Origin: Candidatus Rokuibacteriota bacterium
GTDB lineage: Bacteria > Methylomirabilota > Methylomirabilia > Rokubacteriales > JACPHL01
Reading direction: 5' to 3'
Length of the DNA: 6,438 nucleotides
NCBI GenBank assembly: GCA_016188625.1
Contig: JACPHL010000208.1
Coordinates: 1-6,438, forward strand
The stretch's first letter is position 1. Each line of letters starts with the position of its first letter. The notes under the pieces were generated by a model. That model worked only from the letters and a program-made list of their open reading frames with translations. It was not told the DNA's origin and searched no databases. Shown piece by piece: positions 2,163 to 6,105 of this stretch. Made by a program: the position numbers and the translations under genes.

Positions 2163-2190
2163 TTGACATCTATGATATTAGCAGTATAAT
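2163..2190 (+). promoter_or_regulatory. Consensus sigma70-type promoter of the toxin-antitoxin operon
   Basis: TTGACA (2163-2168) and TATAAT (2185-2190) are both exact consensus hexamers, separated by 16 bases. The surrounding AT-rich island is conspicuous in this GC-rich window. A start of transcription 6-7 bases past the -10 box would fall on or next to the ATG at 2197, so the transcript should be leaderless. Antitoxins usually bind their own promoter, but I could not find a convincing perfect operator palindrome here. Confidence 0.85.
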
Positions 2191-2196
2191 GCCACT

Positions 2197-2448
2197 ATGC
2201 GTGCTCGAACGATGCTGTATATCGATCCCGAAGAGTTAAAAGCCTTGCGGGCCGAAGCCCGCGCCCAAGGGGTCTCACTGGCCGAGCTGCTCCGCCGGCT
2301 GGTGAGGGCGTACCTGGAGGCCCAGCGTCGGCCTCCGAGCCCGCCGTCCCCGAGCGCCTACCTGAAGCTCGTGGGGCTGGGGGCCAGCGGGCGGTCGGAC
2401 ATCGCCGCCCGCCACGATGCCTATCTCGGGGACGCCGTCCGCCGGTGA
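2197..2448 (+). CDS. Ribbon-helix-helix antitoxin (VapB-like)
   Basis: An 83-residue antitoxin predicted to repress its own operon and neutralise the PIN toxin that follows. Residues 3-9 (ARTMLYI) form the DNA-contacting beta strand, 11-25 (PEELKALRAEARAQG) helix A and 27-41 (SLAELLRRLVRAYLE) helix B of a ribbon-helix-helix fold. A Pro-rich linker (46-53) leads to the C-terminal toxin-binding tail, whose GRSDIAARHDAYL motif is typical of antitoxins paired with PIN toxins. There is no Shine-Dalgarno sequence, and ATG 2197 lies six bases past the -10 box, implying leaderless translation. An in-frame ATG at 2212 (residue 6) is the alternative, but it would remove half of the DNA-binding strand and also lacks a ribosome site. 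The stop overlaps the toxin start by four bases. Confidence 0.88.
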   Translation: MRARTMLYIDPEELKALRAEARAQGVSLAELLRRLVRAYLEAQRRPPSPPSPSAYLKLVGLGASGRSDIAARHDAYLGDAVRR

Positions 2449-2870
2449 GCGTGCTCGTCGATACCGGCGCCTGGTACGCCCTGGCCGATACCTCCGACCG
2501 CCACCATGAGGCGGCGCGGCGGTTTTACACCGAGCAGGCCGGCCGGACGCCGTTCGTCACCACCGACCTCATTGCCGCGGAGACCTGGGCGCTCCTGAGC
2601 GCCCATCTCGGGCGGGCCGCCGCCCTCACCTTCTGGGCGACGTTGCGGGAGGCGCGGATCCCCATCCTCGCCCTGGAGCCGGCGGACCTCGAGGCGGCCT
2701 GGCACATCGCCCAGGCCTTCCCCGACCAGGCCTTCAGCTTCACTGACTGCACGACCTTCGCGCTCATGGAGCGGCAGGGGCTGACCGAGGCGTTCGCCTT
2801 CGACACCCACTTCCTCGTCTACCGGTTCGGCCCCAGCCGGCAGCGTGCCTTCCGCCGCCTGCCCGACTGA
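2445..2870 (+). CDS. PIN-domain ribonuclease toxin (VapC-like)
   Basis: A 141-residue PIN-domain endoribonuclease. VapC-type toxins cleave RNA, commonly tRNA or rRNA, with a metal-dependent acidic site. The expected residues are all present: D6 (VLVDTGAWYAL), E46 (LIAAETWAL), D101 (FSFTDCTTFALM) and D120 (AFAFDTHF), so the enzyme should be active. The length is normal for the family. It starts with GTG at 2445, inside the antitoxin stop (GTGA overlap), and has no clear ribosome site of its own, which points to translational coupling that keeps toxin below antitoxin. An in-frame GTG at 2451 is a second possible start. The C-terminus is basic (RQRAFRRLPD). The target RNA cannot be inferred. Confidence 0.93.
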   Translation: MSVLVDTGAWYALADTSDRHHEAARRFYTEQAGRTPFVTTDLIAAETWALLSAHLGRAAALTFWATLREARIPILALEPADLEAAWHIAQAFPDQAFSFTDCTTFALMERQGLTEAFAFDTHFLVYRFGPSRQRAFRRLPD

Positions 2871-3799: not shown

Positions 3800-4897
3800 G
3801 TGCTGAAGCCCTTGACCGACGAGCAGCGCCAGATCGTGGCGACCATCCGGGCCTTCGTCGAGAAGGACGTCCTCCCCGTGGTCACCCGGCTCGAGCACGA
3901 GGACCGCTACCCCCACGACCTCGTCGAGCAGATGAAGGGCCTCGGGCTCTTCGGCGCCGTCATCCCCGAGGCCTACGGCGGCCTCGGCCTCGATTACGGC
4001 ACCTACGCCCTCATCATCGAGGAGCTGGCCCGTGGCTGGATGTCCCTGGCCGGGATCATCAACAGCCACCTCATCATGGCCCACTGCGTGGCGAGCTTCG
4101 GGACCGAGGAGCAGCGGCGCCGGCTCCTCCCACCCATGGCCCGCGGCGACCTCCGCGGCGGGCTCGCCCTCACCGAGCCCCACGCCGGCTCGGACCTCCA
4201 GGCGATCCGGACCACCGCGGTGCGGCACGGCGAGGAGTACCTTCTCACCGGGACCAAGATGTTCGTCACCAACGGCCGCTACGGCCGGGCCTTCGCCCTC
4301 CTGGCCAGGACCGACCCCGCGGCCGAGCCGCCCTACCGGGGGCTGAGCCTCTTCATCGTCGAGAAGGGGCACCCCGGCTTCCAGGTCGGCCGCGACATCG
4401 GCAAGCTCGGCTACAAGGGGGTCGAGACCGTGGAGCTCGTCCTCGAGGCGGTCCCGGTCCCGGCGGCCAACCTGGTGGGCGGGGTCGAGGGGCGGGGGTT
4501 CCAGCAGGTGATGGCCGGGCTCGAGGTGGGGCGGCTCAACATCGCCGCCCGGGCGGTGGGGGTGGCGCGGGCGGCCTTCGAGGAGGCGATCCGCTACGCC
4601 CAGCTCCGCCACGCCTTCGGCCGGCCGATCGCCGAGCACCAGGCGATCCAGCTCAAGCTCGCCGACATGGCGACCAGGGTGGAGGCGGCGCGCCTGCTCA
4701 CCCACCAGGCTGCCGAGGCCAAGGACCGCGGGGCGCGCGCGGACCTCGAGGCCGGGATGGCCAAGCTCTTCGCCTCCGAGGCGGCCCAGGAGGTGGCCCT
4801 GGAGGCGATGCGGATCCACGGCGGCTACGGCTATACTACCGGGACACCCCGCTCATGCTCATCGGCGAGGGGACCAACGAGATCCAGCGCCTGCTGA
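3800..4897 (+). CDS. Acyl-CoA dehydrogenase, first tandem copy, C-terminally frameshifted
   Basis: An FAD-dependent enzyme type that makes the alpha-beta double bond in acyl-CoA thioesters and passes electrons to ETF. Residues 1-347 are normal: an N-terminal helical domain (LGLFGAVIPEAYGGLGLDY, RGWMS), signature ALTEPHAGSD (123-132), the FAD/substrate strand GTKMFVTNG, and the C-terminal helical domain up to RIHGGYGYTT. From residue 348 the frame is wrong, and the protein ends in 18 unrelated residues (GTPRSCSSARGPTRSSAC). The loop TEFPVER, the catalytic glutamate (in GEGTNEIQ) and the last helix are lost from this ORF. They are found in the next frame from 4834 on. Comparison with the second copy shows that exactly 25 bases are missing after 4833. 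As written, the product should be inactive. The domain is about 70% identical to copy 2 (hand count, no gaps). Substrate unknown. Confidence 0.88.
   Translation: MLKPLTDEQRQIVATIRAFVEKDVLPVVTRLEHEDRYPHDLVEQMKGLGLFGAVIPEAYGGLGLDYGTYALIIEELARGWMSLAGIINSHLIMAHCVASFGTEEQRRRLLPPMARGDLRGGLALTEPHAGSDLQAIRTTAVRHGEEYLLTGTKMFVTNGRYGRAFALLARTDPAAEPPYRGLSLFIVEKGHPGFQVGRDIGKLGYKGVETVELVLEAVPVPAANLVGGVEGRGFQQVMAGLEVGRLNIAARAVGVARAAFEEAIRYAQLRHAFGRPIAEHQAIQLKLADMATRVEAARLLTHQAAEAKDRGARADLEAGMAKLFASEAAQEVALEAMRIHGGYGYTTGTPRSCSSARGPTRSSAC
4290..4342 (+). repeat. 53-base identical block shared by the two dehydrogenase copies
   Basis: Positions 4290-4342 equal 5438-5490 base for base, including third codon positions (encoding FALLARTDPAAEPPYRG). 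Two further 48-base identities are 4628-4675 with 5776-5823, and 4735-4782 with 5883-5930. These blocks are much more similar than the regions between them. Confidence 0.85.
4833..4841 (+). other. Junction of a 25-base deletion in dehydrogenase copy 1
   Basis: Identical blocks in the two copies lie 1148 bases apart up to position 4833 (matching 5981) and 1173 bases apart from 4834 onward (matching 6007). The bases corresponding to 5982-6006 are absent. The sequence at the junction, TACTACCG (4834-4841), could have been present on both sides before the event, since TAT-ACT-ACC-G and TAC-TAC-CG both contain it. That would give a replication-slippage route. Confidence 0.85.
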
Positions 4898-6105
4898 TCG
4901 CCCGCCGGCTCCTTCAGCGCTACGGCGAGCGCGCCGGCGCCTTCCGCAGCCTGGAGGAGCTCCCCGCGGAGCAGCGGCGACTGGTCCAGGCCGTCCGCAC
5001 CTTCGTGGAGAAGGACGTCATCCCCGTCGCGGCGCGCTACGAGCAGGCCGACGAGTACCCCCACGAGCTGGTCGAGAAGCTCAAGGAGCTGGGGCTCTTC
5101 GGCGCGACCATCCCCGAGGCCTGCGGGGGCCTCGGCCTCGACTACACCACCTACGCCATGGTGGTGGAGGAGATCTGCCGGGGGTGGATGTCGGTCTCGG
5201 GGGTCCTCAACACCCACCTCATCATGGCCTACATCGTGCTCCACTTCGGGACCGAGGAGCAGCGCCGGCGCTTCCTGCCGGCCTTCGCCCGCGGCGACAA
5301 GCGCGGCGGCCTGGCCCTGACCGAGGCCGGGGCCGGCTCGGACGTCCAGGCCCTCAGGACGGCGGCCCGGCGCGAGGGTGACCACTACGTGATCAACGGG
5401 ACGAAGATGTTCATCACCAACGGCCGCCACGGGAACACCTTCGCCCTCCTGGCCAGGACCGACCCCGCGGCCGAGCCGCCCTACCGGGGGATCTCGTGCT
5501 TCATCATCGAGAAGGGCGCCCCGGGCTTCACGGTGAGCCGCGACCTCGACAAGCTCGGCTACCGGGGGCTCGACACCTGCGAGCTGATCTTCGAGGAGTT
5601 CCGGGTCCCGGCGGCCAACCTGGTGGGCGGCCGGGAGGGCCAGGGGTTCAAGCAGGTCATGGCCGGGCTCGAGACCGGGCGCGTCAACATCGCCGCCCGC
5701 GGGGTCGGGATCGCCCAGGCGGCCTTCGAGGCGGCCCTCCGCTACGCCCGGGAGCGGACCGCCTTCGGGCGACCCATCGCCGAGCACCAGGCGATCCAGC
5801 TCAAGCTCGCCGACATGGCGACCCAGCTCGAGGCCGCCCGCCTCCTCACCTACTGGGCGGCGGCCAAGAAGGACTCGGGCGAGCGCGCGGACCTCGAGGC
5901 CGGGATGGCCAAGCTCTTCGCCTCCGAGGCCTGCTACCAGATCAGCCTCGAGGCGATGCGGATCCACGGCGGCTACGGCTACACGACCGAGTTCCCCGTG
6001 GAGCGTTACTACCGGGACGCCCCGCTCCTGATCATCGGCGAGGGGACCAACGAGATCCAGCGCCTGGTGATCGCCCGGGGCCTCCTCCAACGCTACGCCG
6101 TGTGA
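4855..6105 (+). CDS. Acyl-CoA dehydrogenase, second tandem copy (intact domain)
   Basis: A 416-residue flavoprotein dehydrogenase with every family landmark: LGLFGATIPEACGGLGLDY, signature ALTEAGAGSD (about residues 154-163), GTKMFITNG, GRPIAEHQAIQLKLADMAT, RIHGGYGYTTEFPVERYYRD, and catalytic Glu396 in GEGTNEIQ. The base is in the position used by MCAD/SCAD-type enzymes, so activity is expected. The first 31 residues (MLIGEGTNEIQRL...) are not native to this domain: they are the C-terminal tail of copy 1, including its catalytic glutamate (Glu5). True domain 2 begins at residue 32, where there is no ATG, GTG or TTG. ATG 4855 is therefore the only canonical start, and it has no clear ribosome site. 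Expression may depend on coupling to the overlapping ORF upstream (4855-4897). Acyl chain specificity cannot be told. Confidence 0.93.
   Translation: MLIGEGTNEIQRLLIARRLLQRYGERAGAFRSLEELPAEQRRLVQAVRTFVEKDVIPVAARYEQADEYPHELVEKLKELGLFGATIPEACGGLGLDYTTYAMVVEEICRGWMSVSGVLNTHLIMAYIVLHFGTEEQRRRFLPAFARGDKRGGLALTEAGAGSDVQALRTAARREGDHYVINGTKMFITNGRHGNTFALLARTDPAAEPPYRGISCFIIEKGAPGFTVSRDLDKLGYRGLDTCELIFEEFRVPAANLVGGREGQGFKQVMAGLETGRVNIAARGVGIAQAAFEAALRYARERTAFGRPIAEHQAIQLKLADMATQLEAARLLTYWAAAKKDSGERADLEAGMAKLFASEACYQISLEAMRIHGGYGYTTEFPVERYYRDAPLLIIGEGTNEIQRLVIARGLLQRYAV

Follow-up and report, generated by a model that had tools for sequence, protein, structure and literature searches.

The window that we analyzed, a 6,438-nt stretch of contig JACPHL010000208.1 from a Candidatus Rokuibacteriota bacterium, carries a promoter with two perfect hexamers that abuts the start codon of a small antitoxin gene, which in turn overlaps the gene of a PIN-domain toxin. 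The features of the locus are:

2163-2168, plus strand: -35 hexamer TTGACA, 6/6 consensus, read directly and by scan
2169-2184, plus strand: spacer between the -35 and -10 hexamers, 16 nt
2185-2190, plus strand: -10 hexamer TATAAT, 6/6 consensus, read directly and by scan; the related locus L006 has the same -10 hexamer and distance
2191-2196, plus strand: gccact, the six bases between the -10 box and the ATG
2197, plus strand: predicted transcription start, the A of the ATG, based on spacing, purine preference and the preferred distance between -10 motifs and starts
2197-2448, plus strand: VapB-type ribbon-helix-helix (RHH) antitoxin, 83 aa, ATG start (PF01402 RHH_1, E 2.1e-7)
2445-2870, plus strand: VapC-type PIN-domain toxin, 141 aa, GTG start (PF01850 PIN, E 5e-13)

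The PF01402 and PF01850 matches are both over their cut-offs, and the acidic motifs of a PIN toxin can be read in the translation of the second gene (LVDTGAW, AAETW, FSFTDC and FAFDTHF). A small DNA-binding antitoxin followed by an overlapping PIN-domain toxin is also the arrangement of the VapBC type II systems, but the present genes reach no NCBIfam VapB/VapC cut-off (22.2 bits for TIGR00028 against a cut-off of 73.6, and 15.1 for VapB_Myco against 60), and because these curated models miss their cut-offs we limit the name to 'VapBC-type'. Relatives of the toxin on plasmids are distant only, with less than 50% identity. We read the locus as a chromosomal type II VapBC-type operon. The GTG of the toxin overlaps the TGA of the antitoxin in a GTGA at 2445-2448, and four-base overlaps of the GTGA type are also present in several related operons, which points to translational coupling of the toxin to the antitoxin.

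The original prediction had described this GTGA overlap, exact TTGACA and TATAAT hexamers with a 16-base spacer, an ATG six bases further on and the lack of a Shine-Dalgarno (SD) sequence. The overlap is real and can be read directly, the promoter geometry was confirmed by reading and by scan, and there is indeed no SD sequence before ATG 2197 because just six bases separate it from the -10 box. Apart from this 12/12 site, our scan found no promoter-like site in the window at 9/12 or better, and dinucleotide shuffles lead one to expect 0.1 such sites per window. Across the whole 2.6-Mb genome, exact TTGACA-N15..19-TATAAT has four matches as against none in the backwards control, so the promoter is not a chance match. 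Inspection of the translations suggests that the genes behind the other three perfect promoters are a YceD-type gene, guaB and a cold-shock gene, and their leaders, also judged by eye, measure some 45-65 nt; the antitoxin's promoter is alone among the four in abutting a start codon. When an operator palindrome was sought in 2156-2215, the best inverted-repeat arms were not clearly above those of shuffled sequences.

In-frame stops lie upstream of 2197, and no start codon falls between the last of them and 2197. The N-terminal MRARTM is identical in two relatives with 53-60% identity (L006 and L119, both beginning (M)MRARTM), and its codons differ among the relatives mainly at third bases or between the arginine codon families, so that the changes are mostly synonymous. 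Given the lack of an upstream in-frame start and the encoding of MRART by differing codons in three species, the antitoxin frame is protein-coding from 2197, and this conservation identifies ATG 2197 as the true start of the antitoxin. ATG 2212, which the original prediction had named as a possible competing start, is ruled out by the conserved MRART codons; conservation of MRARTM runs from ATG 2197. At the level of sequence and comparison, then, the promoter, the start codon, their spacing, the identities of the genes and the overlap are established.

Because the perfect promoter ends exactly at the antitoxin start, the transcript very probably has the start codon at its 5' end. A2197 is a purine at the usual +1 distance, seven bases beyond the -10 box. 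From this layout we infer where transcription starts, that translation is leaderless and that the two genes are coupled: a strong sigma-70-type promoter would place the start of RNA polymerase at, or about one base from, the A of the antitoxin AUG, the antitoxin would be translated from this 5'-terminal AUG without SD pairing, and the toxin would follow through termination and reinitiation where the two genes overlap at GTGA. That the locus is a VapBC-type operon on a strong promoter, with a leaderless antitoxin and a toxin coupled at GTGA, we consider quite probable.

Two other transcript starts have to be weighed. The main message could carry a leader, through read-through from the preceding gene or from a farther-upstream start, with the perfect promoter being minor or repressed by the antitoxin. 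The preceding gene, on the same strand, stops at 2134, leaving an intergenic region of 62 nt in which no terminator was found, but the same gap holds the 12/12 promoter, ATG 2197 lacks an SD sequence and the -10 to ATG spacing fits a genome-wide peak (see below), all of which make a leadered main message unlikely. Transcription could also begin at 2194 or a nearby base, giving a leader of 1-5 nt that would act as nearly leaderless; start sites do vary by a few bases and A2194 is a purine, but it lies only four bases past the -10 box, below the usual distance, whereas A2197 sits at the preferred one, and we regard this start as improbable.

The leaderless reading of the operon can be compared with gene starts elsewhere in the genome, for which we used whole-genome pattern searches and sample stretches. 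TATAAT-N6-ATG has six matches in the genome and none backwards, and in five cases the ATG begins a long reading frame (by the look of their sequences an ABC transporter, this antitoxin, a HEPN-type protein, LpxK and RarA). The genome-wide spectrum of TATAAT-to-ATG distances from 0 to 30 nt peaks at 6-9 nt (21 of 49 matches against 6.3 expected, p 2e-7), and long frames are opened by 18 of these 21, including transporters, LpxK, RarA and others. This peak is weaker in two other genomes of the order (p 0.01 and 0.03); in a complete genome from another family of the class, TATAAT-ATG matches are as many as in the backwards control, and any peak among the first 49 matches listed is marginal at best (p 0.04). 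In a 175-kb sample, TAnnnT-ATG at 6-9 nt is slightly in excess, by about five sites, which is too few events for a spectrum; the sample suggests that only a minor fraction of the genes are leaderless. The GGAGG SD spectrum of the same sample showed no usable peak in this GC-rich DNA. Since ordinary housekeeping genes share the leaderless layout here, it is not special to the antitoxin. Judged by these motifs, the layout is one ordinary type of gene start in this genome, and it is common for antitoxins in the phylum. We also noted that the ABC transporter and RarA genes (L045 on contig C12 and L050 on contig C274), which are unrelated, have a near-identical GC-rich stretch that lies within about 60 nt before the ATG and extends to the TATAAT, apparently a repeated element.

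Searches of genome contigs for close relatives of the antitoxin gave none with the single protein as query and one with a two-sequence alignment as query. The closest antitoxin of the same order (L006, at G058:C335), from another family and with 53% identity over the alignment or 56% over the matched part, reads TATAATgccgccATG and retains TATAAT-6 nt-ATG, with a weak -35. It is truncated and has lost its PIN toxin, and is for that reason a weak witness for a working operon. Downstream of it lie a Phd-like antitoxin and then the start of another PIN protein. The second relative, L119, has 60% identity and comes from a metagenome-assembled genome labelled Candidatus Nitrosymbiomonas (Armatimonadota); its upstream region reads TTGACT-18-TATGCT with a leader of about 35 nt that contains an SD-like GGGG. 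Because an operon with 60% identity has a leader and an SD-like sequence, the leaderless arrangement is not fixed in the family. From these upstream regions, the -10 to ATG spacing is kept within the order and not everywhere.

For a wider set, we started from PIN-toxin loci in 95 genomes of the phylum, located the antitoxin before each and counted TAnnnT by its distance to the start. Half (20) of the 40 antitoxins that precede PIN toxins have TAnnnT 6-8 nt upstream of the start, with 4, 8 and 8 matches at 6, 7 and 8 nt and none at 2-5 or 9-12 nt, and an SD-like stretch is found in 16 of the 20 antitoxins without it. Among neighboring ORFs, even with generous counting, TAnnnT occurs at that distance in only 1 of 30 (Fisher p 1e-5, ignoring relatedness). 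The 20 are dominated by one related group of 13 'RPLQVYL' antitoxins; counted by groups, at least one member with TAnnnT at 6-8 nt occurs in 7 of 14. Conservation of the -10 to ATG distance, which the original prediction had proposed as a check, is mixed, holding in L006 and in these 20 of 40 antitoxins (6-8 nt) and failing in L119. Its claim of a leaderless message starting at or beside the A of the ATG is well supported, though by sequence and comparison only, through the +1 position of A2197 and the spacing in L006 and in the 20 of 40.

The related group of 13 consists of RHH antitoxins that start M-x-R/K-P-LQVY (L034-L037, L039-L042, L103, L107, L109, L113 and L114) and have TAnnnT 7-8 nt before the ATG. 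They carry TCATGA(T)-like sites, as a rule one ahead of the -35 and another inside the spacer; these probably serve as the operator of the antitoxin, here on a leaderless promoter. Two further loci, L008 and L009, have an inverted repeat, TTATCA-N-TGATAA, just before the antitoxin ATG (in L008, GTTATCAC-N11-GTGATAAC), likely an operator overlapping the antitoxin start.

Leaderless toxin-antitoxin (TA) operons are known from Mycobacterium tuberculosis, where, among the 37 TA pairs that have a primary start, 32 are leaderless and TA modules are enriched among leaderless messages (Cortes et al. 2013, PMC3898074); the present operon is therefore a further case and not a new kind. Like those, it is a type II operon whose transcript is predicted to start at the start codon of the first gene, but it belongs to another phylum, its -35 is perfect, its start is predicted from sequence and the genome-wide share of leaderless genes looks smaller. 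In Deinococcus radiodurans, a TAnnnT box 6-7 bp before ORFs was reported to act as a promoter (Zhong et al. 2025, PMC12340547), and TA-led genes are widespread in bacteria (Zheng et al. 2011, PMC3160421). The present layout resembles these Deinococcus-Thermus and TA-led genes in the position of TAnnnT or TATAAT, about 6-7 nt from the start codon, in being read as leaderless and in occurring across gene classes, and differs from them in its full -35. NC10 and Methylomirabilis were sought in PMC3160421 and not found, and literature searches on leaderless genes in Methylomirabilota gave nothing beyond a soil coassembly containing both words.

What is mildly new is the enrichment of leaderless starts among the phylum's antitoxins, in counts that ignore relatedness. 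The contrast of 20 of 40 with 1 of 30 makes it testable whether antitoxins, rather than whole genomes, favor leaderless starts, and the operon itself is a clear example, at the sequence level, of a type II TA operon outside Actinobacteria with a leaderless start. We propose only tentatively that leaderless starts are much more frequent among antitoxins of this phylum than among its other genes, independently of mycobacteria; if true, leaderless initiation would have been repeatedly selected for type II antitoxins. More speculatively, and along the lines of the original prediction, the leaderless antitoxin start might respond to stress, altering the balance of toxin and antitoxin under conditions that favor 70S or leaderless initiation. 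Leaderless TA messages have been discussed in connection with stress (PMC8485053), leaderless messages of M. tuberculosis increase in starvation (PMC3898074) and starvation affects a leaderless reporter less than an SD reporter (PMC8485053), but with the toxin coupled on the same message both products should move together, and housekeeping genes in this genome have the same start type, so that we find such a switch doubtful.

Elsewhere in the window, two acyl-CoA dehydrogenase genes lie in tandem, and around the part coding for TTEFPVER (4830-4900) the first lacks about 25 bases that the second has. This gap shifts its frame, and its C-terminus runs on into the second gene; the gap is either a real deletion or an assembly slip.
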